A stretch of 64,000 nt of DNA from Spinacia oleracea (Eukaryota > Streptophyta > Magnoliopsida > Caryophyllales > Amaranthaceae). A model generated the notes under the pieces. The model was not told where the DNA came from. It searched no databases and was given only the letters and a program-made list of their open reading frames with translations. The stretch spans positions 65,835,671 to 65,899,670 of the forward strand of contig NC_079492.1 of assembly GCF_020520425.1 (NCBI RefSeq). Direction: 5' to 3'. A program made the translations under genes and the position numbers. Each line of letters begins with the position of its first letter. Positions within the stretch are counted from its first letter, which is position 1. This document shows, piece after piece, positions 3,257-27,120 of this stretch.

Positions 3257-5413
3257 ATGATGGGTCAGGTCGAACTTCCTTTACCGTTCTGGGGACATGT
3301 GTTGCAAACTGCAGCACTCACACTGAATCGTGCTCCGTCAAAAGCTGTTGAAAAGACTCCATACGAATTATGGACTGGGAAACTTCCAAAGTTGTCTTTT
3401 CTGAAGATTTGGGGTTGCGAAGCATATGTCAAGCGATTAATTTCGGACAAGCTACAACCTAAATCTGACAAATGTTTCTTCGTTGGGTATCCAAAAGAAA
3501 CTATGGGGTATTATTTCTACAACAAGTCAGACAACAAGGTATTCGTTGCTCGTGACGGTGTCTTTTTGGAAAGAAATCATATTTCCAAATTGTCAAGTGG
3601 GAGAATAATAGATCTCGAAGAGATTCGAGACGAACAACAAACTCAGAACTCTTTAGAAGCAGTTCAAGTTGATGAACCTCCAAGGTCTTTAGAAGAGCCA
3701 GTGGGAGTAGTTCCTCAAAATGTTGTTGCCCCTCGTAGGTCAAATAGAACTATTTTTCAGCCGGACAGATGGACAGGCGTCCTCTTGACTGAAAACTTAG
3801 ACGTTCTCATATTGGATAGTGATGAACCTTTGACTTACAAGCAAGCTATGACGAACCCAAGCTCCATTAAATGGTTAGAGGCCATGCAATCTGAAATAGA
3901 CTCCATGTCTGAAAATCAAGTCTGGGATTTGGTTGATTTGCCGGATGGGTTCACACCTATCGGATGCAAATGGGTCTTCAAGTTGAAGAAAGACAGAGAT
4001 GGAATTGTATACATATACAAGGCTAGATTGGTACCAAAAGGTTACAGGCAAGTTCACGGCGTTGACTACGATGAAACCTTTTCTCCAGTCGCGATGCTTA
4101 AGTCTATTCGGATAATCCTTGCGATTGCCGCTTTTCATGACTATGAAATATGGCAAATGGATGTCAAAACTGCCTTCTTGAACGGTGTTCTTGAAGAGAC
4201 TGTGTTTATGACACAGCCGGAGGGTTTTGTCGATCAAAAGAACCAAGGAAAGGTATGCAAGCTTAAGAAGTCCATCTACGGACTAAAGCAGGCATCAAGA
4301 AGTTGGAATAAACGATTTGATGAAGCAGTCAATAAGTTTGGCTTCATCAAGAATCAAGACGAATCTTGTGTATACAAGAAGGTCAGTGGGAGTAAAATTG
4401 CATTCCTAGTCTTGTATGTTGACGACATACTGCTTATTGGAAACGACATTCCTATGTTGGAGTCTGTAAAGACTTGGCTCGGGAAGTGTTTCTCAATGAA
4501 GGACTTAGGAGAGGCACAGTACATATTGGGCATCAAGATCTATAGGGATAGATCTAAGAGGATGATTGGACTAAGCCAAAGCACTTACATTGACAAAGTG
4601 CTAGCTAGGTTCAATATGATGGAAGCCAAGAGAGGCCATCTACCCATGTCACATGGCATATATCTAAGCAAGAATCAGTGTCCCAAAACATCTGATGAGC
4701 GTAGAAAGATGAGTGGAATTCCATACGCTTCGGCTATTGGATCCATCATGTATGTTATGATTTGTACAAGGCCGGATGTTTCGTTCGCACTCAGTGCAAC
4801 GAGCAGGTACCAGTCAGAACCAGGTGAGGCGCATTGGACTGCTGCCAAGAACATCTTAAAGTACCTGAAAAGGACTAAGGATCGGTTTCTGGTTTATGGT
4901 GGTACAGATGAGTTGATTGTTAAGGGCTATACGGATGCAACCTTTCAAACCGACAGAGATGATTTCAGATCACAGTCTGGGTTTGTGTTCTACCTCAACG
5001 GCGGAGCAGTAAGCTGGAAAAGTGCTAAGCAAAGCACTATTGCGGATTCTACAACTGAAGCCGAGTACATTGCTGCCTCAGAAGCAGCAAAGGAAGCTGT
5101 TTGGATTTGGAAGTTCATCGAAGAACTTGGTGTTGTCCCCTCCATTAAAGGACCAGTGGCTTTGTATTGCGACAACAGCGGAGCCATTGCCCAGGCAAAG
5201 GAGCCTAGGAGCCACCAGAAGTCCAAGCACGTACTGCGGCGATTTCATATACTTCGAGAGATCGTTGAAAGAAAGGAAATCGAGATTTGCAAGGTTGGAA
5301 CTGACGACAACGTCGCGGATCCATTGACTAAACCGTTGCCACAAAGTGAAACACAACGCACATGTAGCAACCATGGGAATCAAGCATGTTGGAGAATGGC
5401 TTTGATTTTCTAA
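3257..5413 (+). CDS. Copia integrase C-terminus, reverse transcriptase and RNase H
   Basis: This is the same reading frame as the upstream ORF, separated only by the TAA at 3254-3256. The integrase tail (TPYELWTGKLP, KIWGCEAYVKR) is followed by the RT domain (KARLVPKGYRQ, YDETFSPVA). The RT catalytic YVDD is at 4415-4426. RNase H follows (GYTDATFQTD, STTEAEYIA, DNSGAIAQAKEP, KSKHVLRRFH). The length and C-terminus (ADPLTKPLPQ then a short tail) match a full copia polyprotein. RT and RNase H motifs look intact, but without readthrough of the stop they would not be made as part of Gag-Pol. The ATG at 3257 is probably not a natural start. Confidence 0.88.
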   Translation: MMGQVELPLPFWGHVLQTAALTLNRAPSKAVEKTPYELWTGKLPKLSFLKIWGCEAYVKRLISDKLQPKSDKCFFVGYPKETMGYYFYNKSDNKVFVARDGVFLERNHISKLSSGRIIDLEEIRDEQQTQNSLEAVQVDEPPRSLEEPVGVVPQNVVAPRRSNRTIFQPDRWTGVLLTENLDVLILDSDEPLTYKQAMTNPSSIKWLEAMQSEIDSMSENQVWDLVDLPDGFTPIGCKWVFKLKKDRDGIVYIYKARLVPKGYRQVHGVDYDETFSPVAMLKSIRIILAIAAFHDYEIWQMDVKTAFLNGVLEETVFMTQPEGFVDQKNQGKVCKLKKSIYGLKQASRSWNKRFDEAVNKFGFIKNQDESCVYKKVSGSKIAFLVLYVDDILLIGNDIPMLESVKTWLGKCFSMKDLGEAQYILGIKIYRDRSKRMIGLSQSTYIDKVLARFNMMEAKRGHLPMSHGIYLSKNQCPKTSDERRKMSGIPYASAIGSIMYVMICTRPDVSFALSATSRYQSEPGEAHWTAAKNILKYLKRTKDRFLVYGGTDELIVKGYTDATFQTDRDDFRSQSGFVFYLNGGAVSWKSAKQSTIADSTTEAEYIAASEAAKEAVWIWKFIEELGVVPSIKGPVALYCDNSGAIAQAKEPRSHQKSKHVLRRFHILREIVERKEIEICKVGTDDNVADPLTKPLPQSETQRTCSNHGNQACWRMALIF

Positions 5414-9585: not shown

Positions 9586-10146
9586 CTCCCTACGTTTCTA
9601 TTTGTTTGTTACGTATTCATTTTAGGGTGTTTCACAATAATTGTTACGTGGGAGAATCTTTCCTTTTATAAACTTATTATACTATTGTAGACACCTACTT
9701 TTGTCCCCATTCCCGAAAGGGAAGGTTCGATGATGAGAACATAAATCTCCCCTTGGCAACGCATCTCTTATAAAATAACGAATCTCAATCACCCTTTTCA
9801 TTTCACCCGAAACCTGCTATTTATAGAAACCTGCTAAAAATAGTAACTGCCGTAATGGGCAGTTGTTAAAAGTGGCAAGTCATAAAAGATAGAAACCTGT
9901 CAGAATTAGGTGTTGCACTCCAACATAAATCCTAAATGAGATAGAAGTTGCGAGAGAATCCTATTCCTAATACGATTCGACAATAAGAGTTACGTATTAA
10001 ATTAAAATTCTAACGAGCCTAGAGTTCGTAACGGGCCCAGACGCATCCCGTCATAAAATTAATACGCACTAAAAGACTCGATTAAGTCTCATACACTCCG
10101 GATTCTAAGAGTCCGAATCTGACAAAGAAACGGCCCAAACATCAAT

Positions 10147-10245
10147 TTCAACGCCCAGCCCAGGGCGCTGAAATTGCCTGGATCCTATTATCAACGCCCA
10201 GAGCTGGGCGCCGAAATCTTTGACGCCCAGCCCTGGGCGCTGAAA
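10147..10245. repeat. Three GC palindromes in the 5' LTR
   Basis: Three successive hairpin units of the form CGCCCAG-N-CTGGGCG, each followed by GCTGAAA or CCGAAA, at 10147-10173, 10192-10216 and 10221-10245. The same unit recurs in the 3' LTR and at four internal sites. Confidence 0.85.
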
Positions 10246-10320
10246 ATACCTGGGACGTGTTCTTTCCTAATTCCTCGTGGATTAGAGTTCTACAATTCTA
10301 TCTTTCCACGAACTCTTTTC

Positions 10321-10328
10321 TATAAATA
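10321..10328 (+). promoter_or_regulatory. TATA box of the gypsy 5' LTR
   Basis: TATAAATA lies about 75 bases downstream of the palindrome cluster. The 3' LTR repeats it at 26253-26260. It probably drives transcription of the genomic RNA. Confidence 0.7.
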
Positions 10329-11188
10329 TAGCCCCAAGTTCGACGTGAAAACAACACACAACACACAATTCATATTCTGAGTATTGACTCTAAACCCCTA
10401 AGCCTAAGCCTCACGCTGCGAAATTAATCACACGTTCTGTCGCAATCGATCCAAAAATCGAACAGAACGTATCCTGTCCCGTAATTTGAGATTCGTTAAA
10501 TAAAAGGAGAAATAGCAAAGTCAAAGTGGTTAGTTTTCTAAGAACCGTGACGCACCTCTCAAGGGTGCGTCGTAATGTGTCCCTTTTCCATGGTTTAATT
10601 GCTTTCCTCGCCCTTTTCATAAACTGTTAAACTAATCAAATCTGATTGTTCTATCACGCCTAATAAAGATAATATGTTGGGAAATTGGATTATCATGCTA
10701 GGTCCCTTAATACAATCTAAATCAGATAATCGCGCTCGATCTAGTATTATATGTTGCATGTTGTTAAAATCAACTCAGATTAGTTTAATAGTTAACGCAT
10801 GTCCCTTCAATTATTTATGTTGAGCTAGTAAGGATATCCTGCCTCTGGAGTTATCGAAGAGAGAGGACTCCTCTCGGTAGTTACAGTCCCCCGATCCCTC
10901 AATCTCTACCTTGCGGGTGTATGTTAAGAGATCCCCACACCAGGGATCACAAGGGAACCTACGGCCGTCGTGGTCAAACATAATTGCACTCCCTTTATGT
11001 CACGATAACCGGGTTTTGTCAGTTTTTCTCATTGTCGTTAAAAACTGAATGGCGACTCCTATATTACTAGTCAATTGGGTGTAAACTCACAGGAAATCCA
11101 ATTACACTTGATTTGACAAAAAAGAAGCGTCACACCCACGAGGGACGAGGTCACGCATTAGCCTCGTTCTTTTTCGACCCCCTCACAG

Positions 11189-11206
11189 TGGCGACTCCAC
11201 TGGGGA
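11189..11206 (+). other. Primer binding site of the gypsy element
   Basis: TGGCGACTCCACTGGGGA starts one base after the LTR. It is an 18-base site complementary to a tRNA 3' end finishing in CCA. Ogre/Tat elements are known to use a tRNA-Arg with this kind of sequence. The exact isoacceptor is inferred. Confidence 0.8.
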
Positions 11207-12411
11207 TAGTGAAGGAAATACTCGTGCTTGTAGGTAATCAAAATAGCCGAAGGGTGAAACGATCCTACCCCGCGTTTATTTCCCCATCAAGTTGGGACGA
11301 CCTGAAAATCAGCATATTAATGTGAACGGGCAGAACCGCATAACGAATCTTGGCTCCCTCAGGGAGTTAGGACTAAGGATACCCATCGCCAACCGGGGGG
11401 TGCATACGCTTCGAATGTTGTCCACTCGGCACTTTCGCTAGTAGTACACCCGTCCCAAACCCAATCGCTCGCCCATTAGGTCCCTCTCATTGGTGCATGC
11501 CCCCTTGGCTTACATCGTGATTGGCCTCTTAGGCGAAATTCGTCTGTTGAAGGCACTACCTCGACTGGGGCATGTGTTGGATCTGCGATAGAAGCGGTAC
11601 CAAGCCAGGCGCAAATACTACCCATAGAAGCCCATCATAAACTACATGACATATTATTATTTCCTCATGATGTAATGTTAGTTATGTGTAGCAAAATATG
11701 TGATTGTGTGTGACAAACAACGTTAGAAAACCAACGACCTTAAAAATTGCCCAAACATTCATAAACCAATTGGCCAAAGAGTTATACCGAAATACGTGTT
11801 CCGTAAACCCGAACGATCGCCACAAAAATAAGAGACACTCGGGATGGCCTGTAACGAATCCCACAAACGCTGCCCAACGCGTAAAGGACGTTATTAGGCA
11901 AGCACGCAAAATCAAAGTCGCATAAACAAAAAGTAGACGTAAACAGAAAGCGAGAACCAGCCAGGGACGCATTTTCAACGCCCCTGGTTGGGCGCCATAA
12001 TTTCTCACGCCCTACGCTGGGCGCTGAAGTTGTTGCCTGGCCTTTTGGTCAGGCGCAGCAGCCTCGGTGCCCGCGCAAAAAATATGTAGCAAAAAAAAAC
12101 CATTCGTAAAAATTGCTGCAAGGGCGTATGAAAAGCACTCGATTCTTAAAGCGACTAAAAAATATATATAAATAAATAACTCTTTGTGTCGTTGTTAGGC
12201 CTCCTACGACGACAATGCTCGGCACCAAAACCGAACATGCCAATAACTATGAATGTCACAATGGGCAAGTGTATCCAAAATCCAAAGAATGACCAAAAGA
12301 AAGAACCAAAAAGTGTACCAACAAAAGAAAGAGCGAAAAAACCAATAGAGAGAGTCAAAGTCTAGACTAAGTAATGCTTGAAACTTTGGGGCCTAAACTT
12401 TAGCTTATCTT
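11207..12411 (+). other. Gypsy leader between primer site and gag, no gene seen
   Basis: No convincing ORF. A pair of the GC palindromes sits at 11973-12029. The short ORFs on either strand here do not resemble known proteins. Tat/Ogre relatives sometimes carry an extra ORF in this position, and none is recognisable here. Confidence 0.5.
11973..12029. repeat. GC palindrome pair in the gypsy leader
   Basis: Two imperfect hairpin units (CGCCCCTGGTTGGGCG and CGCCCTACGCTGGGCG), the second ending in GCTGAA, separated by about 10 bases. Confidence 0.75.
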
Positions 12412-14663
12412 ATGCATAGGACTGGTCCTGCCACTTGGTGCCGATCAGGAAATCAAAGGTTAGTGCGTCTCGAAGATACATCGCCAACACCAGATTTAGT
12501 GACTCCAAGCTCCGTCCGTCATCCCTCATTTCAAGGATCTCCGCTTCCCCAACCTCGATTCGCACCCTCAAACATGTCCATCGAAGAATTGCGAGACCAG
12601 ATGACCCAAATGACCCAACTCATGGGCTAACTGAAAATGGAAAACGAAGCCTTAGCGGCTGCACAAGCCAAAAATGACCTCGATAACGAAAAGAGGATTG
12701 AAAAAATGGTCCTACAGCAAACCATGGGGAGCAAGTACTTCTCCCTTGATCCTGAACCTTTTCCTGGCAAACTACCAGAAAAGTTTAGTTCATCTGACTT
12801 ACCAAAGTTTAAAGCCACGGACAATCCCCGTGATCATCTATTGAGCTTTGTGAATGCCATGAACTTGAAAGGCGTGGACAAGTCCATGTATTTACCTGCC
12901 TTTCCTTTGTCCTTGGAACCTGTGCCGCTCAAATGGTACTACCACCAGGACCCTAAGCTCTTCCCCACTTGGGAAGACTTTGTCAATGTCTTCATCAAGC
13001 AATACTCGTCGAACATGGATTTTCAAGTCACCATGCGCGAGCTGGAAGTTCTCTTCCAAAAGAAAAATGAAGGTTTCACAACCTACTTTGCTAGATGGAG
13101 GGACCAGGCGGCCCAACTAATCAACAGGCCTCCCGAAACAGAATTGGTCCAAAAATTCATTGACAACCTGGACCCGGCTTACAGACAACACCTTAGGTAC
13201 CTGGGACTTGACACTTTCAAAAGAGTTTATGATGTGGGAATAAAGATCGAGGACGACCTCGCAAAAACAATACAAAGTAAACCCGCATACAAAAGCAACA
13301 CCTACAACAGGGGCAACACGTCCCAAGCCCAAGAAGTGCATGTCGTAGAGGAGACTCCCGCCCGAAGAAATCCTGGAAGATGGGTCCGAGACCGAAAGTT
13401 TGCCCCACTCGGGTCGACTTTGGTACAAGCCTTTGAAAGACTAACCAATCAAGGGAAGTTGAGACCTATAGGCCCCACCCGTGACCCTCCTGTCAAGGGC
13501 AAATATTGGGTCGAAGGTACTTACTGCAAATTCCATCAAGGAAATGGGCATGACACTGAAAACTGCTGGAATCTAAAACATACGATCCAGGACATGATAG
13601 AGGATGAAGTGATACCGCTCCCTAACGTTGGCAAACCCAACAACAACAAAAGCCCACTCGGCTCTTGTCACGTCTCTCTCGACCAACCAGAAAATGAGAA
13701 CTTCGACCCTACGGTGTATATTACACCTCAAGGTGCACCACTCGCTGTGGTCCCTATGGATCGAATCGAGAGAGAAGTGTGCGATGTGTGGGATGATGAT
13801 GCTGAAGATATCTACCTATCTCAAGTATCGGGCCAGGACCTCTTTATTGAAACTTGGCCCGGGTATGCTCTCATTGACACCACCCCTCAGGAACCCGAAG
13901 TCGAAAATCTCACCCGATCCGGAAGAGTATATCAATCGGATATTCGCCCACCTCCTACAGACGATATCCCAGTCAGACAAACTCCTGAGAATGGACGGCA
14001 CACCACCGTCGCGGAAGTCATTGAAAATCCTCTATTGAAGCAACTAAAAAGAACCAAGGCCGAGATTACCATCTGGGATCTCATGTGTACTTCAAAGGAA
14101 CATCGCGAAAAGCTTATTCGCTCACTTGACCTCATCTCGTTGCCTACAGATATCACACCTAACTCATTGGTTAACCACGTCACGAGAGATGTTGGAGAAA
14201 AGGCCATAGTTTTCACTGACAAAGACTTGCCCAAAGAGGGGGGTGCTCACAATAAAGCCCTCTATCTAGTGGTTGGATGCAAAGGACAAAACATCCCCCT
14301 AGCGCTCGTAGATAACGGTTCGGCAGTTAACGTTTGCCCATTGCGAACCGCCCATTGCTTGGGGCTAGGAAACGATGACTTCCAAACCTCCACGCAAGGG
14401 GTACGAGCCTATGATAACTCTCGAAGGCCTGTGTTGGGAAAAATCAACCTTACCATACAAACCGGGCCTGTGGCACGCACCACGGAGTTTCAAATAATCG
14501 ACAACAAGCCCACTTTCAACCTCCTCTTGGGGCGACCTTGGCTCCATGACTTAGGAGGTGTGGCTTCTACCTTGCACCAAATGGTTAAACTTAACCATAA
14601 CGGGGTAATACTGGAAATCCGCGCCCCTCCTCTCGACATCAGTTGTACTATGGTTGGAACGGC
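12412..14663 (+). pseudogene. Gypsy gag-protease, left part, interrupted by CACTA
   Basis: The frame opens at 12412, meets an in-frame TAA at 12628-12630, and continues in the same frame from 12637 to the CACTA junction. It contains a retrotransposon Gag domain (WYYHQDPKLFPTWEDF, FTTYFARWRDQA, LVQKFIDNLDP). A Cys/His motif of the Tat/Athila type follows (YCKFHQGNGHDTENCW, about 13523-13570). An aspartic protease region (PLALVDNGSAVNVCPL, about 14302-14342) has a DNG active-site variant. Beyond 14664 the apparent frame reads CACTA terminus and stops at 14686-14688. The frame resumes after the transposon at 19672. At least two nonsense codons plus the insertion make this copy non-functional. 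Confidence 0.88.
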
Positions 14664-14689
14664 CACTAGTGGAAAAAACCCCTGTTGAG

Positions 14690-15000
14690 GGGGGCATTTC
14701 AGGCTTGTTGAGGCGAACATGGCCCGCTTCGACAGAGGGGGCTTCAACAGGCCAGAGATCTGTTGAGGCGGGCTTGGCCCGCCTCAAAAAGATATCTGTT
14801 GAGGCGGGCATTTGAAAGCCCCCCTCAACAGACAAGCCTGTTGAGGCTCACATTTATAAAGCCCCCCTTAACAAACAAGCCTGTTGAGGCTCACATTAAA
14901 TTGCCCCCCTCAACAGACAAGCCTGTTGAGGCGAACATTAAATAGCCCCCCTCAACAGACAAGCCTGTTGAGGCAAACATTGTGTTGCCCGTCCCAACTA
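14690..15000. repeat. Left subterminal repeats of the CACTA element
   Basis: The phrase CCTGTTGAGGC and its inverse CCCCCCTCAACAG alternate about every 50 bases through this stretch. In En/Spm elements such repeats bind the TNPA-like protein. Here only the array is visible. Confidence 0.8.
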
Positions 15001-18000
15001 GCAGTCTTAATCAACAACACGTAAGCTGGGCTACCACCACTAATATTCTGCTTTAATTTTCTTTGTTAGGTAAAGAAGAACTATAATACTCATAAAATAG
15101 ACAATTGTAAACAATAAATACTTCATTCACATTAATATTGAAATAATATTGTTTAATGTAATTTTACAATATAAATTCACACAAAAATAATTTTTGAATC
15201 TACAAAACTAGCTGCTACAAAAGGGAGTGACAATACTTCAGCAGCAACATTTTGTGTCTAATACTATCAGACTCTTGGGAGGAAATATTGTATGCGGGAA
15301 TGCCTTGTTGCGACCAAAAGCAGAAGGCAGAATTCCTCCCTGTTAAGGCAACAAAAACAGGACATTGAATCATATGCAAAATTACTCTAACAACATTCTA
15401 TTTAGACATTTAGCAAAAAGGTGGTGGTTTGGAGTTGATTCCAGAGCCTCGTTGAAGGTCCGAGTCCATTTCTAAATTGAACTTCATAAGCTATTCAGTT
15501 ACAAGGCAATCAACTCTTATAAAAAAAAGCTCATGTTACACTCAACAGATGCAAGAACAAAAGAACTGAGTAAATACTGGGTAAACAATAAAAGGTACCT
15601 CGGAAAATTACAGTCTCTCCTTTACAAACGAACAGAAAAAAGTTCATTCAGTTTTCACAGAGAAGGATTTTACCTAGTCAAAAGCCCAAAAATAGCCTTA
15701 ATAAACATGTGATACTTACTCTTAATGGTTCTGGTACAAGGCTTTCCGGAGGAATATCTGAAAGTTAAAGTTTTAATCCACATTCTCTTGCAAGAATTAT
15801 TACCTGCCACGTAGAAGCTTCTGTAAGAAAACAAACTATTGAACTCGAAACAGAAAGCTAGGAGTGCATGTATTTAGAAAATGATAACTTGACTTCACCA
15901 AGACCCCGTACTCAGTGAGGAGTGATTATTTTTGGCTAGTTGTAAAACAAAATGTAGTCTATATACTCTGTAACAAATAGTACTACATCTATAACAATTT
16001 CAGATGCTAAAGGAAATAATCTCATGATAAGTCATCAATTGAGAAGATAGAGCAGATACATCGCAACAACTTTAAATAACCAAAGAAAGGAAATAAATAG
16101 TGGAATAAATAGTTTATCTCAATGGTGGCCTTTGGGTTTCAGCATCAGTTTACAAAAAGCATAAATTTCTCCATTGTCATTCGGTCAGGATTGGTTACAA
16201 AAGCAGTTAAAAAGCTGTCAACTTGTCACTAGATAGGAATCTGAAAGATTAACATGGATACACATTAAACCACCAATGCAATGATTTCTAACACACATAA
16301 TCCATTTCCTATAAACAGAAATTGTCATTCAGTTTCCAAGAAAAAGAGAAACAAAAGCAAGGTAACTTGGTTTTTTGCTGCATAAGCCCCATTGTTGATA
16401 GATACTATGGGATCCCTAGCAAGTTTTGGTGCACCCCCTCAAAGAATTTACCAATTAAGTCAGCTCAAATTCACAGACAATCCATTCGTATGCATTACAA
16501 GCAAACAACAAATCAGCATTGCTAGTTAAGGAGGAAGGATTGAGGAGGAGAGAAATCCCACAAGACCACTCTTAAGCCCTGACATCTGGAAAATGTGGAA
16601 ACATATAATACTTAAACATTTTCATGTCTTGGACTGATTTAACAAGTCAATTCAAGGACAAAAACATGGCAATTTCATAAGATCAGTATACACGAAGAAG
16701 ATGATACTTGTAGAAGAAGGAAAACTGGGAAAACTAAGGAAAAAATGAATCAGGATTGATTAGAAGTCTTAAATAATAAGTAGTGCCCATTTTAAATCTT
16801 TTCTATAGAAAAAGGCAGCACCCAAGTACAGGATTGCTTAGCTCCCCTAATTTGAGGCACAATTCCATAATATATGCCTACTTTGACTTCTAGAAGTTCT
16901 GAGAGAGAAATAAAATCAAGCAAGTTCATTAGCTACCATTTCCTTTTTTGAAAATGACAGTTAACTAAAAAATAATGCTACTGGTTAGGTTTCTTAATAA
17001 ATTCACCAAAATTACAGCTTGAACCTCATAAGACCGTAGAGTTCCAAATATTGAATAATTTTGTAACACAACAATCTCCAAACAAAAGTTCGCAATGAAA
17101 TATTTAGAGTACATATGCAACAAATGCAAGGCAGAAACAACAACAGAAGCAATAAAAATGATCATATATGAAGTTCCCCCTCCCCTCATCTAACATACTG
17201 ATAATAATAATGTATAAGGCGGTTCCCATTTGCGAATTTGCCAATCCCAAAGACAACTAAACTCCCACTCTACAAAAGATCAAGCACAGTCTACGTTGTC
17301 GAACCAACAATCAAATCAACCTCTATACAAGTTATGCAAGAGAATAGTCCTTCGGTCAGTTTGGTTTTGAATACCCAAATTACCTCCTCAGTTATTAATA
17401 ATTTGACAACAGTTAGCTATCATCTAGATATTGTTGCATAGGGGGTCAAATTAAGATATAGGGTAGTAAAGACTAAATAGGAAATGTGAGAACATAAGAG
17501 CTCAACCTAAACTAAATTGCATTGCATAACTACTCAACTAAGTCAGAACAAAATGTCATCCAAGAAATTACAATAGTTTTACATTCAGTGAGAGAAAGTG
17601 ATAAATATAAAGAGGAGAAGTTAAAATCATAATAGAATGGTCACGAAGTAGCAGTTGAATAATAGTAAAATAACCAGAAAAAATCTTACTAAAACAGCGA
17701 GACGAAAACAATACAATGACCGATTCAAAGAAATTTCTCAGATTGCATCCATGATTGGAGTGCCACCTCTTTCTATCTCCAATTTAATTTCTGACTTACA
17801 ATATCATCTAACAAAGTTTCTAGATAAAGGAACCGAGTCATAACCTGTATTGAAATTAATCACTCTGGAGTCGGTTATACTGGATGCAACAAGAGTCCCG
17901 ATCACTTCATCTTCTGTCATCACTATGATTTTTTCAACTTACATGAACTTAGACTTGTCTTTCTCTTTTTCCCTCATGTTTAAATTCTTGAATGTACATC

Positions 18001-19219
18001 ACCAGAACCCTTATTAGGTAAAACACTGAACTAGTATTGGCACTGCTGAAGGTTTGGCATATCTTCACTAAAGTGCAACTACAAGAATTATCCACAGAGA
18101 CATAAAAGCATAAGTTACAGCAAAAATTGCTTATTTTGGGTTGGCCATGATTTCTGAAGAAGATAAAAGCCACGTCAGTACTTCCATTGCAGGCACACTA
18201 TAAGTAATTCAAAGTTATATAATCAGGTACAGCGATAACTCCCAGCTCCCTCTGTCTAGAATTAAAAGCCATATGCTACTGTATGAAGTTCGGAAAATAC
18301 TGTCACATTTTCTAAAATAATATTGGTTTATGATTGGATTTCTTGTATTCAGAATAAGTGACAAGAAGAGGATAACGCAAGCAACTAACAATAGTGGTTT
18401 TGTAAAACAGGATATCCTTAATTACGAGGGGTTAGGGAGAAATGACTGCTAGTTCCGGGAAGAGGAGTAGTTCTTTCATGTCTATGCTTAAAGCTCGTAT
18501 TTGAAAAAGTAGATATTACATCACAATTTATTGGGGGGGTATATTGCCCCAGATTCCCAGAGAGTATCTATCACACATATAGCTAACAGAGACAACATAT
18601 GTTTACAGCTTCTGGTGCTTGCTTCTGTTAAAGATAGTCAAGGAATGCAAAATAACACGCAAAGAACTGAAGATTACTCTAAAAGCTTAATAGCAAGCGT
18701 GAGTTACTGAGTCCCTACTTCTCCTTACAGTCCTAAGCCTGAAAGTACCCAATTCAATTTCAGATACTAAGATGTCGACTTATTATATTGATATGAATAA
18801 CGAAGAAATTCAGTATGCAAATTAGAAGCGTAAAAGAGGAAAATTATTGAAATAAACCTTAGTTGCGATTATTGCAAATATCGAAACCCCTAACCTAATA
18901 AATTTTAAATACAGATCTTCACATTATGCACCGAGGCATCAAAAATTAGATTTAACCAATTAAAAACAACATAACATCATAGATCTACACTATATACCGA
19001 AATGCGGCATCAAAAGTTCAAATTGAACGATTTCAACACTCATAACATCAATTTTTCGCAATAACAACATAAAATTAAGAAAAAAAGAAAGCAGAAACGA
19101 TAGATCTAGAGAGAAGAAGAGAGGTTATACCTGAATACCATGCTCGAGACAGTAAAGCTACCAACAAGAATTTTCGACCTGGATATCAGCTTGACCGATG
19201 TGGATTGAAATTCCTTCAT
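15001..19219 (-). pseudogene. Gene-like insert inside the CACTA, possible captured host gene fragment
   Basis: On the minus strand, 5' to 3': a CT-rich leader, a TATA-like CATAAAAG near 19293-19300, and an ATG at 19216-19218 that opens a 30-codon exon (starts MKEFQSTSVK, ends VSSMVFR). A splice donor CAG|GTATAACC follows near 19130. The remainder looks like long AT-rich introns. Near 15345 the sequence TTAACAG resembles an acceptor, followed by 32 open codons (GGILPSAFGRNK...) and a stop. I cannot name the gene, and no other exon is convincing. A captured, intron-bearing gene fragment is plausible, but this could also be unrelated filler. Confidence 0.35.
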
Positions 19220-19499
19220 TTTCGCTTGAAATTTTTAGATGTAACACGAAGATAAAATGTTGAAAGAGGAGAGAGAAAGAGAACGAAATCGAGGGCTTTT
19301 ATGAAGACACCTTCTTTGAAGAGAATGAGGGAGAGGGAGAGAAGATATACCTTCCATGGAAAGGGGCGGATGGTTTGAGGAGTTTTGAACCGGGAGCGAG
19401 GAGAGGGGAGAGGAGAGAGAAATGATTCTTTCACGCTAACAGAAGAAATGAGGAGGAGAGAGAATTAAAAGTTGGAGTATATGCGATTATTATTTGTTA

Positions 19500-19660
19500 C
19501 AGCGAACCTTTAATGCCCCCTTCAACAATTGATATTGAAGCGAACAACAAAAATGTTCGCTTCAACAACTCTTTATAATGTTTGACCCGCGTTGACCGAT
19601 TGGTTGTTGAAGCGTATTTCTCTATGCCCCCTTCAACAAGGGGGCTGCAATAAAGATTTT
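19500..19660. repeat. Right subterminal repeats of the CACTA element
   Basis: GTTGAAG/CTTCAAC motifs with GCCCCCTTCAACA mirror the left subterminal array in inverted orientation. Confidence 0.75.
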
Positions 19661-19671
19661 TTCTACTAGTG

Positions 19672-20395
19672 GGCCGAAACTGCAGACGACCTTTATGGGT
19701 TCCAAATGGATGAAGCAATCCAGTTCATCGAAGACTATGATCCAGCATTCCTAGACCCGCGCGCATCCCGAGTCGTCCCTAGAATGCTGTTAGCTCAAGG
19801 TTATTTCCCAGGAACCCCATTGGGCATAAGGAAGAAGGAATACACATTCCATCCTTTACCCACCAAATCTACTCCCTTTGGCTTAGGCTATGAACCAACG
19901 GAGGAAGATATTGATGACCGCCTGTCTGGGCTACGCCTTAACAAGGCCAAACAAACCACCCTCCTTCCCCCGTATCAAAGGACCCTTAACGGGATGTTCG
20001 TACGGGAAGGAGAAGAGCACCCATGCTGTGATTTCCCTGAACCCTTCGTTCAGGACGGCTTGCTAAAACCCGGATTTGAAATTTTCCATGACTGCCACAC
20101 CTTGGATGAGGCACCCCACCTCACCAAGACCAAAACAGCTGAAATATTGGACAACTAGGCTCTATGGATATTGTTTAACGAATCGAGGCCTATGGAGGAC
20201 GAGACTGTGATGACTACCCTAGCTTTACAAGATGAAGGTTTCGACCCAACCCGGTTAATAGCTCCTGCATCAACACTAGAAGAGATCGAGAACGGATGGG
20301 TGAAGACATATCAGTGGGTCAACGCAAAAGGAATAGAATTCAAGATGAGTACCGATGAAGGACCAAAGTTTTACGAGACTAAACCCAAGGCTTGA
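19672..20395 (+). pseudogene. Gypsy gag-protease, right part after the CACTA
   Basis: The gag-pro frame continues directly from the TSD (AETADDLYGF...), reads through GIRKKEYTFHPLP and GMFVREGEEHP, and meets an in-frame TAG at 20156-20158. It resumes in the same frame (NESRPMEDETV...) and ends at TGA 20393-20395. Its composition resembles the spacer that follows protease in Tat-type polyproteins. No RT follows, so the polyprotein ends before pol. That is unlike an autonomous element. Confidence 0.82.
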
Positions 20396-21710
20396 GCCAT
20401 ATAAAGAACCATAGTAAAAAGCGCCTAGTAGTTCTTTAGATTGGTAGAAAAAAAAATAAAGGCTTTAGATGGTCCTAAGACCCCTTAGAATATAGGTTAA
20501 TTTTATTTCAGTGTGTTTTGCTTACTTTCCAAATTAATAAAGGCGTAATATTCCTCCTAAAAACTTTATTTCTAACACTAAATGAGCACCAAACGTACTT
20601 GCAAAGAGGCGGTCCACTCTAGGCCCAATAAACAAGGCCCACTCGGTCTTGAATCGCGACATCGGAATTCATCAAACCCTAAAATGAACCACATTATCAT
20701 ATTACCAAAACGTAAGGGTCTAACCCATGCAACCCAAAGAAAGCAAAAGAAACCATGCAAATGTTGCTCAAGAAAAAAACTCATAAAAATAAACGCCGCC
20801 CCCGGCATCAACACGCACCTCAGCCCACTCAAAAGCCCATACAAAGATCTTCATATCTTCCGCACCCTAACTCCATTTTCAAAGCCTTTTCGAGTCACGA
20901 ATAGAAAAAATTAATCCGGACAAAAATGCGTCTCACGCTAACAGTCAAAAAAGCCTCCGAAATAGCCTCAAAATTGATTTTAATACGAGTAAAAAGCAAA
21001 GCACAAAACGAAGAAAAAAAGAAATAAATGCAAGAACATGTGAAGCAAAGCGTCAAAAACGACCGCCCAGAAATCATTTTCAGCGCCCAGGGCTGGGCGC
21101 CAAAATCTTTGACGCCCCAGCCTGGGCGTTGAAACTCTCTGCTTGCCTAACTTATTTTCAGAAGTGCTCGTCATCTTATCCGCACATAACGGAAAAATAA
21201 CGAACACTTGGGGGGTACAGCACGTATCCAGATATGCGTACCAAAAAATATAACCGTACAAAAAAAAACAATGGAATTTGACCTTTATATGCGGCTTACG
21301 GCAAAAAAAAAATTAAAAAAAAAAAAAAAAAAACAGCAGACGAAATTAATGATGTACTTCACTCATTTGACCGATTAAATAATATGTTTCCACCTCAGGG
21401 CATATCTATTAAAATCCGGCATCCTAGAATTTATTCTAGCTAGAACTACGCGCGACCTGATTCTAACAAAGATACGTAGGCAATCCTATTTATGGATTCG
21501 GTCCAATTAAATAGCAAAATATATATACATTGTGCAAAAATGTTAGACATATATAAAATATAAAAAAAAGGGGGAGAAGCAAAAACGAAAGTAAAAAATA
21601 AAATACGCCTTTATTAAAAAATAATAAGAAGGAAAACAAAAGTTCTAAAAGGGAAAAAACAAACACAACTGGAATAAACAAAGGGCACCTACACCCTAGC
21701 AGGAACTACA
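20396..21710 (+). other. Non-coding stretch between gag-pro and the antisense gene
   Basis: AT-rich sequence with a long A tract near 21307-21332 and a palindrome pair at 21078-21135. RT, RNase H and integrase would lie here in an autonomous element, and none of their motifs is present in any frame. Confidence 0.6.
21078..21135. repeat. GC palindrome pair downstream of the antisense gene
   Basis: CGCCCAGGGCTGGGCG and CGCCCCAGCCTGGGCG separated by CCAAAATCTTTGA, ending in TTGAAA. It is nearly the same arrangement as in the LTRs. Confidence 0.85.
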
Positions 21711-23518
21711 CTACTCTAGCTCTTCCGGATCATCAAATAAAGTCTTGTAGAGGGCAAGGTTTGCAGGATCCACCCCCACAGTCTTCTGCGCTGCCCCTAT
21801 ATCAATCTCCATAAGGACCGGCTCCTGGACACTAACTTCCAAAGATGCCAAGACTTCAGAAACATTCTCAGTTATAGCCCGCTCAGCCTCAAGGGCACAG
21901 ACAATGGTGGGAGAAGGATCATCAACATCAACTAGATTAGTCACTGTTTCTACAGACGGCTGAGCCTTCCTAACCCATACATTGTTCCGGCGACGATCTC
22001 CGCGAGAGCTTGCATTTCTTTTAGCAACGGCAGGCCCCTTCATGTTAGGCATCTTCTTAGGCCTAGAACTGGAACGGGGAGGAACTTCATTTCGCTTTCG
22101 ATCAGGACGAGCTTTCACAGTCTTAATACCATGGGTGCGAAGATTGGCAGAATCACGGCCCTCATATCTAACCCGAATACGAGGTATCAAAAGCTCAGCC
22201 GACTCCCCATTTCGAGCCTCGGTCCTCACAGCTTTATCATCGGAGCTCATCCACAACTTGTAGTTTTCAGAAAGACCCACAAAGCCATTTGTAGCTACGG
22301 CCCAACGCGGGAGACCATCATAACACTTAGCCCACGCTTGAACCCGTGCTTGTGAAAAGGCCGCTACTTTAGGTGGTACTGTATCAGAAAAGGGGATAGT
22401 CTGCCTTAAGCCGTATTGGCGCATGACTCGGTAAGGAAAGATATAAATGGGACGGGATAGCCCCAACAAAGAAACATAAACCGATACATCAGAACCCCCC
22501 GTCATAGTAGTCAAACCCCACCACGGTACCACCCATTTAATAGAACAGATACCATGAGTAAAAAAGGAGGCCCACTCGGCCTCGTCCTGGCCTCGGTGCA
22601 AACACTTCCGGTTACCCAAGGCTATAGGGCGATAATGTTTAGGATCGGCAGGAATTTCTAAGAGCCTAAGTCGTTCCATGAGCCAAATCTGCAAAAAACG
22701 GGTACGATCAGATCAAAAAATAATAAGTAAACAAACGAAGCCTGGGGCGCAGTTTCAACGCCCAGGACCAGGCGCCGAAAATTCTGACGCCCAGCCCTGG
22801 GCGCTGAAACTCAGCTCCAGGCAGGACGAGTAAAAAAGAATGCAAAAAAAACATGCGCAAGGAAAAGATCGATTACCTGCAGCAATAGGGGGCTCCCCTT
22901 AAAATATTCAGATTTGGCATCCTTCTTCAGTTCATCCGCACTCAGCAAAGTCTCGGCAACAACCAACGGCATAATAGAATAGCAACTTTCCATCTGGCTA
23001 ATCAAGGGGATCAACCTTATGTCACCGAACTCACCATTGTTATTCGACAGCAAATAATGATTCAACAAGCAAAATATAAGGGCTCGAATGTTCAATTTTT
23101 GTTCGGTTATATTTTTACTAGGTCTAAAGTGATGTTTTACAAGCTTTGCCAAATTAACCTCATCACCTACAACAATCTCAGCAAGCATGTTAGCATCTAG
23201 TCCTAGGAAAGCCCCTATGGTTGTTTTATCCTCTTCAATGGTGCCAGGGGTGGCAGGAGTAGCATTAGTAGGATAACCGAGGATCGCGGCAAATTCATCT
23301 GGCAAAGGACATATTTCGTCGCCCCGAAAGACAAAAACATGATGATCGGAATCCCAAAAGCTTAGGGCTGCATGCAGAAAGTTATAATCAATATTAATTT
23401 GTTGTAAGCCTAAAAGTGCCTCTAAGTGGTATTCTTTCAACAAAGCCTTTTCTGTAGGAGTAAGGGCTCGTAGCCAGCGCCTAATAGCTCGTTGGAGTGA
23501 GAAGGGAGGAATCGACAT
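21711..23518 (-). CDS. Antisense two-exon gene, plant mobile domain-like protein carried by the gypsy element
   Basis: Exon 1 is 23518-22877 (214 codons, starts MSIPPFSLQRA) and exon 2 is 22688-21711 with a TAG stop (325 codons). The intron (22876-22689, 188 bp) has donor CTGCAG|GTAATC and acceptor TTTTTTGCAG|ATTTGG. It is phase 0 and joins ...SPLLLQ to IWLMERL... in frame, giving about 539 aa. Exon 1 has FWDSDHHVFVF, then GDEICPLPDEFAAILGYP. This is the pattern of plant mobile domain-like proteins (DUF7745-type). Exon 2 continues the domain, then becomes a basic, low-complexity tail (RKRNEVPPRSSSRPKK) and an acidic C-terminus. Antisense ORFs with this domain are known in Tat-lineage elements. 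Function is unknown. No stop or frameshift is seen, in contrast to the sense gag-pro. Confidence 0.8.
22752..22810. repeat. GC palindrome pair inside the intron of the antisense gene
   Basis: CGCCCAGGACCAGGCG and CGCCCAGCCCTGGGCG separated by CCGAAAATTCTGA, ending in GCTGAAA. It lies wholly within the 188 bp intron (22689-22876) and fills about a third of it. Confidence 0.85.
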
Positions 23519-23604
23519 GACAAAATCAAGGAGAGATTAAGACTAAGCAACTGCAAGAGAGAAGAAAATTGAGAGTGATAGAAAATAGGGACGTATCTAG
23601 CCCC

Positions 23605-23612
23605 TATATATA
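23605..23612 (-). promoter_or_regulatory. TATA box of the antisense gene
   Basis: The minus strand reads AGCTATATATAGGGGC about 87-95 bases upstream of the ATG at 23518. That spacing allows a start site near 23575 and a short leader. It suggests the gene is transcribed independently of the LTR. Confidence 0.65.
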
Positions 23613-23693
23613 GCTGAAGACATCAAGTGACATCCTGATCTCATTCGGAAACGCGTTAAGAAATCTGAAAACCAAAAATCGCCAGGAGAGGAC

Positions 23694-23750
23694 TTTCAGC
23701 GCCCACGGCTGGGCGCCGAAATAATTAACGCCCTGCCTTGGGCGCTGAAT
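23694..23750. repeat. GC palindrome pair upstream of the antisense promoter
   Basis: CGCCCACGGCTGGGCG and CGCCCTGCCTTGGGCG with CCGAAATAATTAA between them. It is about 85 bases upstream of the antisense TATA box. Confidence 0.8.
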
Positions 23751-24639
23751 ATGCAGCCCAAGGCCCAGATTTCACAAAACGCGGAACAGGAAAGGACGTA
23801 AAACCGTGTTGCTAGACACGAGGCCCTATTGCAATTAAGATCAAGCCCAAAAGCACCTTTAGCACCCAAATATCAAAAAAGATTGTTAAAACTTGGTCAA
23901 AACTTAGACTCGTCTCAAGGAATATATGTGTACACTTTTCAAAACAAATATGAGCGAAATAAATATCAAGGTCATTCTTCGAAACACCAAAAAAATATTG
24001 TTAAGTCGTTGGTTTCTCAAAATAAAAAATATTTGTTTGTCAAAAGATTAAATCCGGGCCAAGCTAAACCGGATATTATTGGAAAATAAACTTTGTCGCC
24101 AGGAAACTGAAGTCGCACTCCACGACCTCACCAAAATAGCACACCACTATAAAGGCCGCTCGCACATACGAGCACGACCCCAAACATGATTAAAGGACGT
24201 TATAAAATACGTACCTCTCTTGGCGAAAAATGACCGACGAGCCCAAGTGCTTGGGGGCTCGCGAAAAAATATATGCTCCAACAAAGAGTGTGCGGAGTCA
24301 AAATCATATTCCCGGACTACGCTACACGCAGTCCCGTGTTTGGATAAACTCAAAAGAACCGGTTTCGACCTCAGAGAAAGGTCGCCGTTAACACTTGTAC
24401 ATGGTCCTCCGATCAAAGACAAAGTAGTGGCAAAAACCGAGCCGTAAAGACTAGCTCGAAACCATGAACAAAGATGACCACAAGACAAAGGTCCGTCTAA
24501 ACTCGTTGTCAACCCACATTCAGGTTACAACTAAGTCCGAGCATCCCTCGAAAGAATTCGCTCTTGCAAGAATGAATAAAAGAAATTCTCAAAAGAAATC
24601 ACGATGAACAAAAAAGGGAACTTGCCCATCTTCAGTTGG
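23751..24639. other. Gypsy internal region without a recognised gene
   Basis: No convincing ORF on either strand. Several short open frames exist (23829-24089 plus, 24147-24512 minus), but they have no family motif and uneven composition. Confidence 0.5.
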
Positions 24640-25105
24640 CAAGATCGCGTCACGAACCACGCGAGTTCCCAAATTGAAAAAAAAACGAATTCAGGGACGT
24701 CCACCCTCAGCGGACAGGGCTCGCCCACCCTCAGCGGGCGGGGTCTGCGTCACTAGCCGCGCAGGTCCTCAGTTTTCGAAAAATAAAGTCTTCAAATTCA
24801 AAATAGGCTCGCCATCTTCAGCCGGCGGGGTCTACGTCACAAACCACGTAGGTCCTTATTTTCAAAAAGCACAAACAAATTTCAAAATATATTCGTCCAC
24901 TTCTATCGGACGGGGTGTCCACCCTTAGCGGACAGGTTCGCCATCTTTAGCCGGCGGGGTCTACGTCACAAACCGCGTAGGTCCTTATTTTCAAATTTCA
25001 AAAACAGATTCGTCCACTTCTATCGGACGGGGTGTCCACCCTTAGCGGACAGGCTCGCCATCTTTAGCCGGCGGGGTCTGCGTCACTAACCGCGCAGGTC
25101 CTTAG
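24640..25105. repeat. Tandem hairpin-rich repeats before the gypsy 3' LTR
   Basis: Modules such as CCACCCTTAGCGGACAGG, CGCCATCTTTAGCCGGCGGG and GTCTACGTCACAAACCGCG recur several times in order. Each is partly self-complementary (GTCC...GGAC, CGCC...GGCG). Tandem repeats upstream of the 3' LTR are a known trait of Tat/Ogre elements and can seed satellites. Confidence 0.8.
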
Positions 25106-25344
25106 TCGCTGCAGCGATAACTTTTTTCGGTTTTCCCTTTTTCCAAAAATTAAAAGGATTGGTTTTCCGTTTTTCCAAAAAAGAACGATGTGCTGGACTT
25201 TCCTTCGTTTTACGTCCCATAAAAACAAGGGGGTTTTCTCATTTAGCTAGCCCTGAAAATGAGAATCTTTAAAAACATTTTTACCTCGTGGTTGGGCTTG
25301 GCCAGGCCCAATTACACTTTATAGCTTTAATTTCGAAAACATCT

Positions 25345-25465
25345 GTAGCTACTCCCAATGACAAAGTGAGGGAGTTTCTACGCCTCTTTAGATACTTCCA
25401 ATGACAAAGTGAGGGAGTTTTATACTATCTGTTGACAAATCCCAATGACACGTGAGGGATATGTC
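25345..25465 (+). repeat. Short tandem motif near the gypsy 3' end
   Basis: The phrase TCCCAATGACAAAGTGAGGGAGTT occurs, with variation, three times between about 25350 and 25460. Confidence 0.6.
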
Positions 25466-25602
25466 GACACTTCAAGTGATGACCCTTAAGTCAAATGTTA
25501 TCACTCGGGGGCTCGTGAGACCCTCACAAAAGCAGGTCACCATGGCTTGTGTGACGCACTCCGTCTAATACTTTGACCATCGTCTTACTCCAAGACTCAG
25601 TC

Positions 25603-25617
25603 AAAGTGGGGGCTAAC
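25603..25617 (+). other. Polypurine tract of the gypsy element
   Basis: AAAGTGGGGGCTAAC directly precedes the 3' LTR TGTAGACACC. It is the expected plus-strand priming site. Confidence 0.75.
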
Positions 25618-27120
25618 TGTAGACACCTACTTTTGTCCCCATTCCCGAAAGGGAAGGTTCGATGATGAGAACATAAATCTCCACTTGGCAACGCATCTCC
25701 TATAAAATAATGAATCTCAATCACCCTTTTCATTTCACCCGAAACCTGCTATTTATAGAAACCTTCTAAAAATAGTAACTGCCATAATGGGCAGTTGTTA
25801 AAAGTGGCAAGTCATAAAAGATAGAAACCTGTCAGAATTAGGTGTTGCACTCCAACATAAATCCTAAATGAGATAGAAGTTGCGAGAGAATCCTATTCCT
25901 AATACGATTCGAAAATAAGAGTTATGTATTAAATTAAAATCCTAACGAGCCTAGAGTTCGTAACGGGCCCAGACGCATCCCGTCATAAAATTAATACGCA
26001 CTAAAAGACTCGATTAAGTCTCATACACTCCGGATTCTAAGAGTCCGAATCTGACAAAGAAACGGCCCAAACATCAATTTCAACGCCCAGCCCAGGGCGC
26101 TGAAATTGCCTGGATCCTATTATCAACGCCCAGAGCTGGGCGCCGAAATCTTTGACGCCCAGCCCTGGGCGCTGAAAATACCTGGGACGTGTTCTTTCCT
26201 AATTCCTCGTGGATTAGAGTTCTACAATTCTATCTTTCCACGAACTCTTTTCTATAAATATAGCCCCAAGTTCGACGTGAAAACAACACACAACACACAA
26301 TTCATATTCTGAGTATTGACTCTAAACCCCTAAGCCTAAGCCTCACGCTGCGAAATTGATCACACGTTCTGTCGCAATCGATCCAAAAATCGAACAGAAC
26401 GTATCCTGTCCCGTAATTTGAGATTCGTTAAATAAAAGGAGAAATAGCAAAGTCAAAGTGGTTAGTTTTCTAAGAACCGTGACGCACCTCTCAAGGGTGC
26501 GTCGTAATGTATCTCTTTTCCATGGTTTAATTGCTTTCCTCGCCCTTTTTATAAACTGTTAAACTAATCAAATCTGATTGTTCTATCACGCCTAATAAAG
26601 ATAATATGTTGGGAAATTGGATTATCATGCTAGGTCCCTTAATACAATCTAAATCAGATAATCGCGCTCGATCTAGTATTATATGTTGCATGTTGTTAAA
26701 ATCAACTCAGATTAGTTTAATAGTTAACGCATGTCCCTTCAATTATTTATGCTGAACTAGTAAGGATATCCTGCCTCTGGAGTTATCGAAGAGCGAGTAC
26801 TCCTGTCGGTAGTTACAGTCCCCCGAACCCTCAATCTCTACCTTGCGGGTGTATGTTGAGAGATCCCCACACCAGGGATCACAAGGGAACCTACGGCCGT
26901 CGTGGTCAAACATAATTGCACTCCCTTTATGTCACGATAATCGGGTTTTGTCAGTTTTTCTCATTGTCGTTAAAAACTGAATGGCGACTCCTATATTACT
27001 AGTCAATTGGGTGTAAACTCACAGGAAATCCAATTACACTTGATTTGACAAAAAAAGAAGCGTCACACCCACGAGGGACGAGGTCACGCATTAGCCTCGT
27101 GCTTTTTCGACCCCCTCACA
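25618..27120 (+). repeat. 3' LTR of the gypsy element
   Basis: It runs from TGTAGACACC to CCCCCTCACA, 1503 bp, about 98.6% identical by eye to the 5' LTR. It is followed at once by the TSD ACTAT. Confidence 0.95.
26079..26177. repeat. Three GC palindromes in the 3' LTR
   Basis: Same three hairpin units as at 10147-10245 in the 5' LTR, in the same order and with no visible change. Confidence 0.85.

Follow-up and report, generated by a model that had tools for sequence, protein, structure and literature searches.

A rigidly spaced double palindrome at fixed positions in an Ogre/Tat-type retrotransposon of spinach: a candidate protein-binding module

Introduction

VANC21, encoded by the DNA transposon VANDAL21 of Arabidopsis, binds introns, intergenic regions, and terminal non-coding regions, with YAGTATTAY motifs lying in one orientation (PMC5735166, PMC10398659). 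Here we describe a paired palindrome in a long terminal repeat (LTR) retrotransposon of Spinacia oleracea, located in a stretch of 64,000 nt (hereafter the window, whose positions are used for the element and its motifs throughout). Pairs of this palindrome lie in the LTRs, in the leader, and around and inside a predicted gene antisense to the element.

Two groups of plant retrotransposons provide further points of comparison. Retand elements carry antisense open reading frames (ORFs) and tandem repeats between pol and the 3′ LTR; one study proposes DNA binding for the antisense product and states that the antisense genes have no known function (PMC11963269). A plant mobile domain (PMD) is present in 57% of Ogre elements (PMC6317226).

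An earlier reading of the window (the original prediction) drew attention to paired hairpins of the type CGCCCAG-N-CTGGGCG and suggested a protein-binding or RNA-structure signal, or else a homogenised family of tiny inserts. We followed up these suggestions computationally.

Results

Palindrome pairs recur at five positions of one element

The conserved unit has the form TTTCA-N-CGCC-N8-GGCG-CNGAAA and mostly occurs in pairs, the starts of the two units being 29 nt apart and their 16-mers separated by 13 nt. A scan of the window with CGCCCAGNNCTGGGCG, allowing up to four mismatches, returned 14 units in the element (at 10152, 10195, 10224, 11979, 12008, 21084, 21113, 22759, 22788, 23700, 23729, 26084, 26127, and 26156) and seven further matches that carry three or four mismatches. 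The 14 units comprise four internal pairs – in the leader, the intron and promoter of the antisense gene, and its 3′ flank – and three units per LTR. With GCGCCCAGNNCTGGGCGC and up to three mismatches, all 12 matches fall within the element (0.02 expected). The heptamer CGCCCAG occurs 21 times in the window, against 1.8 expected and a count reached by none of 100 shuffles; 19 occurrences are in the element and two outside it, at 120 and 6567. The original prediction's observation of about 14 hairpins with a shared spacing and GAAA flanks is confirmed, and its coordinates proved correct to within 1–2 nt.

A single 77-nt direct-repeat family, with six copies that are all on the + strand, covers the five positions (LTR, leader, 3′ flank, intron, and promoter), and homology between the sites extends slightly past the units. 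In an Rfam scan of the window a tRNA alone reached the gathering score, and no known family was found for the palindromes.

Spacing and half-sites are rigid

We observed that the geometry of the pair is nearly invariant. Spacings were listed for the first 7 Mb of contig C1 (50 places and 100 rows in the two listings). When the gap between units was allowed to vary from 2 to 32 nt (4,680 places genome-wide; control, 0), the 50 places listed had a gap of 13 nt in 39 cases, 14 nt in one, and 27–28 nt in the 10 that represent LTR triplets, with no other value; a narrower search with gaps of 10–14 nt found 3,357 places (control, 0). When the inner gap was instead allowed to vary from 2 to 30 nt with fixed flanks (11,841 and 11,687 matches on the two strands; control, 0), it was 8 nt in 99 of the 100 rows listed, with many different inner sequences. 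Across 42 sequences for which no spacing was preset, the distance between adjacent units, where it did not exceed 80 nt, was 29 nt (35), 30 nt (1), or 43 nt (4).

The outer half-sites are similarly constrained. A pair scan restricted to spacings of 28–30 nt, with five overlapping duplicate loci (L002, L004, L005, L007, and L009) skipped, yielded 84 pairs, of which 82 are in register once one with a 30-nt spacing (L033:5529) and one with a 2-nt deletion (L069) are left out. Over these 82 pairs, mismatches to the scan motif affect 10 of 1312 CGCC/GGCG positions versus 207 of 984 CAG/CTG positions, a contrast that is not circular and towards which the motif scan is not biased. The stem as originally drawn thus survives in part: the CGCC/GGCG half-sites and the spacings are kept, and the CAG/CTG portion is not conserved between sites. 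Copies chosen by their antisense exon rather than by the motif have 76 of 80 half-sites intact at the promoter pair and 77 of 80 at the intron pair; one promoter copy that failed the pair scan through loss of a half-site (L048) is included in these promoter counts. When eight class rows are compared, half-site columns agree at 16 of 16 positions versus 12 of 41 other core columns (42% agreement in the outer flanks), though this comparison is partly circular because some classes were found through the motif.

Fixed spacing, free inner sequence, and invariant half-sites together form the trace expected of a dimeric DNA-binding protein. We put at about an even chance the proposal that the paired palindrome acts in cis as a DNA control module of an LTR retrotransposon of Ogre/Tat type, and that a dimeric protein with sequence specificity binds it. 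The protein-binding half of the original prediction is accordingly the part we retain as the best reading.

The pairs hold fixed positions in one group of elements across the genome

In the 894.2-Mb genome (242 contigs), the exact palindrome has 20,686 and 20,592 matches on the two strands, with some places counted on both, and the reversed control has none. These numbers fit the standing of Ogre/Tat in spinach, where no other Gypsy lineage is as abundant (PMC6337768; see also PMC7840529). All 20 loci cut out around exact palindromes, several of which overlap, match the window element (at least 80 nt at E 1e-10 or better). Pairs are present in three of 20 random 10-kb loci, and those three are the sole ones matching the element; the other 17 contain three isolated 3-mismatch matches in total. 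As sampled, then, the module is confined to this group of elements, as the original prediction had proposed to check. Elsewhere, the 28-nt form of the motif was found in 77 stretches of a prokaryote collection and five of a viral collection, each a single place.

Positions within the element are equally regular. Among 20 copies chosen by their antisense exon, the promoter pair is recognisable in all 20 (all four half-sites intact in 16), as is the intron pair (intact in 17). The intron pair is also present in 19 of 20 further intron stretches: 17 are in exact register, L171 and L172 have small deletions, and in L184 the pair is replaced by unrelated sequence. Exact matches to the intron variant by itself number 1,146 on one strand and 1,021 on the other. 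Distances between pairs were taken from 47 of the 100 listed rows, picked by eye and mostly resembling single-element clusters, and so serve as examples rather than a census: 1645–1656 from the 3′-flank to the intron pair in three cases, 942–947 from the intron to the promoter pair in three of four, and 2193–2435 from the promoter pair to the LTR in five of six. Set positions, a second point that the original prediction had left to be checked, are thus what we find.

Homogenised inserts are not. Copies of the same position are 85–97% identical, whereas different positions are mostly 60–76% identical (79% in one comparison), which argues that the positions evolve apart; each retains its own variant in the copies sampled. 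We also rejected a tiny mobile insert resembling a miniature inverted-repeat transposable element, for which varied places and empty sites would be expected: with the pair in 39 of 40 intron and 20 of 20 promoter copies, L184 is the sole exception.

A second family and derivative elements keep the pairs

At one 4-kb locus (L086) the same module is reused in a different family. This locus encodes an antisense gene with a PMD (42.1 bits; cut-off, 34.9), and pairs lie before and beyond this gene; a third unit, different inside, follows again 29 nt on. Its DNA hardly aligns with that of the window except at the pairs, at a single island of 72 nt, and at a weak match next to a pair. The 72-nt island (window 21440–21511; L086:427–497) is 87.5% identical and lies 3′ of the antisense gene.

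Derivatives of the window element provide a parallel case. L033 retains the LTR and leader and still has pairs, although the greater part of its interior cannot be aligned; similar derivative pieces at L003–L005 and L015 also keep pairs. In these derivatives, the pair homologous to the 3′-flank pair lies within an island of 90–245 nt. That pairs persist in L086 and the derivatives is, in our view, the best indication of retention of the module as such.

These observations bear on a passive origin, in which a short unit was copied within an ancestral element and carried along, functionless, by recent amplification. The antisense exon family is indeed young and large (150 of 6167 candidates were scored, at 94–97% identity besides the window itself), and because copies are young, part of the motif sharing reflects descent. 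The slight extension of homology past the units and their uniform orientation would also suit a relic, as would cores at the promoter and LTR that are hardly or not better conserved than their flanks (see below). On the other hand, the positions have diverged from one another while the half-site columns, albeit partly ascertained by the motif, agree throughout; the spacing is kept; and pairs are retained by two families and also by derivatives in which the sequence next to them fails to align. We therefore regard a functionless relic as unlikely.

Two derivatives also contain an ORF antisense to the element (L015:1716–2150 and L033:7972–8340, both +), which we take to resemble part of a plant ECT protein, a YTH-type m6A reader. 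It has no Pfam match, and a structure search by sequence was at chance level (E about 0.05). Capture of part of a host gene, if true, would make this ORF noteworthy.

Pairs stand at a set distance from two promoters

The centre of the pair is 104–105 bp from the TATA box in 10 of 10 LTR pairs (eight loci and both window LTRs) and 109–111 bp from it in five of six antisense promoters, the sixth having an altered TATA. We considered whether the antisense promoter is an inverted copy of the LTR U3 region and rejected this, as U3 and promoter align well at the pair alone and best in the same + orientation.

Within the leader, we observed a TATA-like stretch, TATATATAAATA, at 12163, 162 bp past the leader pair. 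It is also present in L029 and was not seen in L019 or L038; it could be an internal promoter for gag.

Insertions and deletions (indels) avoid the core at several positions. The intron core has one indel versus 111 in its flanks (27 copies), the 3′-flank core none versus 59 (nine copies), and the core of LTR B none versus 36 (six copies), in flanks two to four times longer than the cores.

Several observations count against a bound control module. No TATA lies within 230 bp of the pair in L086, and the intron and 3′-flank pairs have no adjoining promoter in the window; the link to promoters is thus seen in the family of the window element, and for that of L086 it is unproven. The 59-nt promoter core is no more alike among copies than its flanks (0.899 versus 0.913, with the core higher in three of 20), and in LTR A core and flank similarity are about equal. 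Indels are also marked by the aligner inside two cores: 2 and 6 at the promoter, where the flanks have 5 and 6, and 7 at the leader, where the flanks have 36; because the pairs there are still 29 nt apart we read these as alignment artefacts, though this is unproven. The shared orientation at all five positions is not needed by a symmetric DNA site, the copies are young, and the strand preference described below also counts against this reading. Substitution constraint, being unconvincing at the promoter and LTR, was dropped as main evidence. CpG changes affect four of 168 half-site cells versus 21 of 289 flank cells (p 0.03), which is weak evidence given that copies are non-independent; variation is greatest at the remaining core CpGs, of which 33 of 84 are changed.

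Inner stems vary without compensation

The original prediction also suggested an RNA-structure signal, to be checked by looking for compensatory changes that keep the stems. In such a case the pair would fold in genomic or antisense RNA, as two short hairpins or one 22-bp foldback, and serve packaging, dimerisation, splicing, or small-RNA production. Predicted foldbacks are strong on both strands, as is unavoidable for a repeat of this kind, and for the intron pair the antisense strand (−68.5 kcal/mol) is more stable than the sense strand (−54.3 kcal/mol). The antisense strand is the more stable one in 27 of 27 intron copies and in nine of 11 site-class averages, and most mismatches in the intron stem are of the A.C type when read on the sense strand, which makes them G.U on the antisense strand. 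Paired cells greatly outnumber those in slid registers, an outcome inevitable for a palindrome.

Covariation was assessed on 54 aligned pairs (52 distinct), which remained of the 82 in-register pairs once the sets for promoter and intron had been thinned. The score was reached by 498 of 500 shuffles for the long foldback and by 500 of 500 for the two short hairpins, and RNAalifold showed a two-sided change in none of 10 consensus pairs. Within-site substitutions at the intron, promoter, and 3′-flank classes favour pairing in neither strand. LTR substitutions kept sense pairing in seven of 14 cases versus 3.7 expected (p 0.003), and this is one of eight tests, the other seven being null.

An inner stem that varies without compensation argues against a conserved RNA stem. 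The outer CGCC/GGCG half-sites are preserved between copies, so that the loss of stems, which the original prediction had named as evidence against itself, applies to the inner stem and not to them. There is also no evident reason for an RNA to need a loop and linker of exactly 8 and 13 nt. We set the strand preference aside as RNA proof because nine of 11 class averages are too few for a sign test, and keep it as an unexplained observation. A selected RNA structure is, on balance, improbable as the general explanation; the intron pair may have an RNA role of its own.

The host element and its antisense gene

The features of the element are collected in Table 1.

Table 1. Features of the host element and palindrome units, in window positions
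Feature	Position	Strand	Remark
5′ LTR of host element	9686..11187	+	repeat pieces 98–99% identical to 25618–27120
Single unit, 5′ LTR	10146..10173	+	43 nt before pair
Pair, 5′ LTR	10189..10245	+	centre 104 bp before TATAAATA at 10321
Pair, leader between LTR and gag ORF	11973..12029	+	direct repeat and motif scan
gag-pro ORF	12637..14688	+	Retrotrans_gag above cut-off
Pair ~580 bp past antisense-gene stop codon (3′ flank)	21078..21134	+	direct repeat and motif scan
Antisense gene exon 2	21711..22688	−	predicted; ORF and splice AG read from sequence
Predicted intron GTAATCG...TTTTTTGCAG, 188 nt	22689..22876	−	in-frame join of two antisense ORFs
Pair within predicted intron	22753..22809	+	direct repeat and motif scan
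Antisense gene exon 1	22877..23518	−	predicted; weak DUF7745/PMD, below cut-offs
TATA box of antisense gene	23605..23612	−	sequence reading
Pair upstream of antisense promoter	23694..23750	+	centre 110 bp before antisense TATA
3′ LTR of host element	25618..27120	+	direct-repeat match to 5′ LTR
Single unit, 3′ LTR	26078..26105	+	motif scan
Pair, 3′ LTR	26121..26177	+	direct repeat and motif scan

Two long LTRs, as expected of Ogre/Tat, are present and 98–99% identical over the listed repeat pieces, and a Pfam scan of the gag-pro ORF found a Ty3/gypsy-type gag (PF03732, 28.7 bits; cut-off, 24.1). The 5′ LTR is followed by TGGCGACTCCACTGGGGA, a putative match to the tRNA-Arg primer-binding site of that lineage. 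No reverse transcriptase was recognised in the five element proteins scanned, drawn from 69 ORFs of at least 60 amino acids (window 9686–27120), and the LTR lies 5.4–6.0 kb from the 3′-flank unit in six genome cases picked by eye. On these two grounds, this abundant family may lack pol.

The antisense product is weakly similar to known domains: exon 1 scores 24.7 bits for DUF7745 (cut-off, 26) and 17 bits for PMD (cut-off, 34.9). Searches with Pfam and a structure search by sequence recognised no DNA-binding domain in either antisense exon; in the structure search, exon 1 was without a match and exon 2 had a single match at E 0.94.

Other features of the window were also observed. A nested 5.0-kb CACTA-type transposon (14664–19671; ends CACTAGTGG.../...CTACTAGTG) interrupts the element with a 3-bp target duplication, GGC, and the uninterrupted site is present at locus L042. 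Ahead of the 3′ LTR, head-to-tail repeats of ~117 nt with GGCGGGGT motifs (24699–25127) resemble the tandem arrays described for Retand elements. A separate Copia-type element with two long ORFs and gag, integrase, and RVT_2 domains occupies window 1349–5413.

Discussion

These results point to a module that is real, abundant, bound to its element, and unusually rigid, and that is most likely a protein-binding control site. In the arrangement we envisage, a dimeric sequence-specific protein would bind both of two dyad-symmetric sites (half-site TTTCANCGCC, with 8 bp between CGCC and GGCG) placed 29 bp apart. Standing ~105–110 bp before the TATA box in the LTR and the antisense promoter, the pair would provide upstream control of sense and antisense transcripts, and the leader, intron, and 3′-flank pairs would extend the occupied region over non-coding parts. 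From the sequence patterns we infer the binding, an action on transcription or silencing, and the candidate identities of the protein considered here.

Plant dimeric transcription factors recognise sites of a related layout: the everted repeats of ARF proteins and the sites of VOZ proteins consist of inverted half-sites with about 7–8 bp between them. The half-site gap is similar to that of the spinach module, and the half-site sequence is different. We know of no site of the ARF or VOZ type with pairing at 29 bp.

A special case of the bound control module is that the pairs are sites for the element's own antisense protein, or a relative of it, which would counter silencing or tune transcription much as VANC does. 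The pairs occupy non-coding sequence in the LTR as well as within and around the antisense gene, and the second family, with its antisense PMD gene, shows the same bracket. VANC21 offers an analogy in its binding to non-coding regions with one-orientation motifs (PMC5735166). Against such a protein, neither exon yielded a recognisable DNA-binding domain, and pairs are also kept by derivatives in which the antisense gene does not align. We consider this special case doubtful. A fuller version, a retrotransposon operator system, is likewise speculative and not the outcome we expect: the antisense-gene protein would recognise the double palindromes of the LTR, leader, and antisense-gene flanks and protect or activate all copies in trans, and derivatives that lost genes would keep their operators so as to remain under this control.

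The comparison with described systems is one of likeness. Like the window pairs, VANC21 motifs are short, repeated in non-coding parts of one transposon family, in one orientation, and dense only there, and within our sampling the pairs are family-specific and in non-coding parts of the element. VANDAL21, in contrast, is a DNA transposon whose tandem arrays are dynamic and whose binding protein is proven; the spinach element is an LTR retrotransposon, its dyad pairs are rigid, and its binding protein is hypothetical. We accordingly do not class the module as VANC. Retand elements share antisense ORFs and repeats in the 3′ region but carry TRP28 (PF04195) and tandem arrays, whereas the window antisense product is weakly DUF7745/PMD-like (PMC11963269). 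Ogre elements share a PMD-type extra gene and Ty3/gypsy affiliation, although the PMD match in the window is below cut-off and that in L086 above it.

To our knowledge, no function is known for the antisense genes of Ogre elements. No such module is named for these elements in the open-licence papers searched, as far as their available text extends: the strings "hairpin" and "palindrom" are absent from the available parts of PMC6317226, PMC6337768, and PMC7840529, and in those of PMC11963269 "hairpin" is absent and "palindrom" appears in a cited title only.

A rigid module that brackets and interrupts an antisense gene, stands at similar distances from the sense and antisense TATA boxes, is present again in another family, and persists in derivatives is a concrete target for finding the protein. 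If the antisense protein binds the pairs, elements that encode their own control of silencing would include, besides DNA transposons, retrotransposons that are very abundant in this genome. A retrotransposon would then have anti-silencing of the VANC kind, and the antisense PMD genes that Ogre elements carry would acquire a function.

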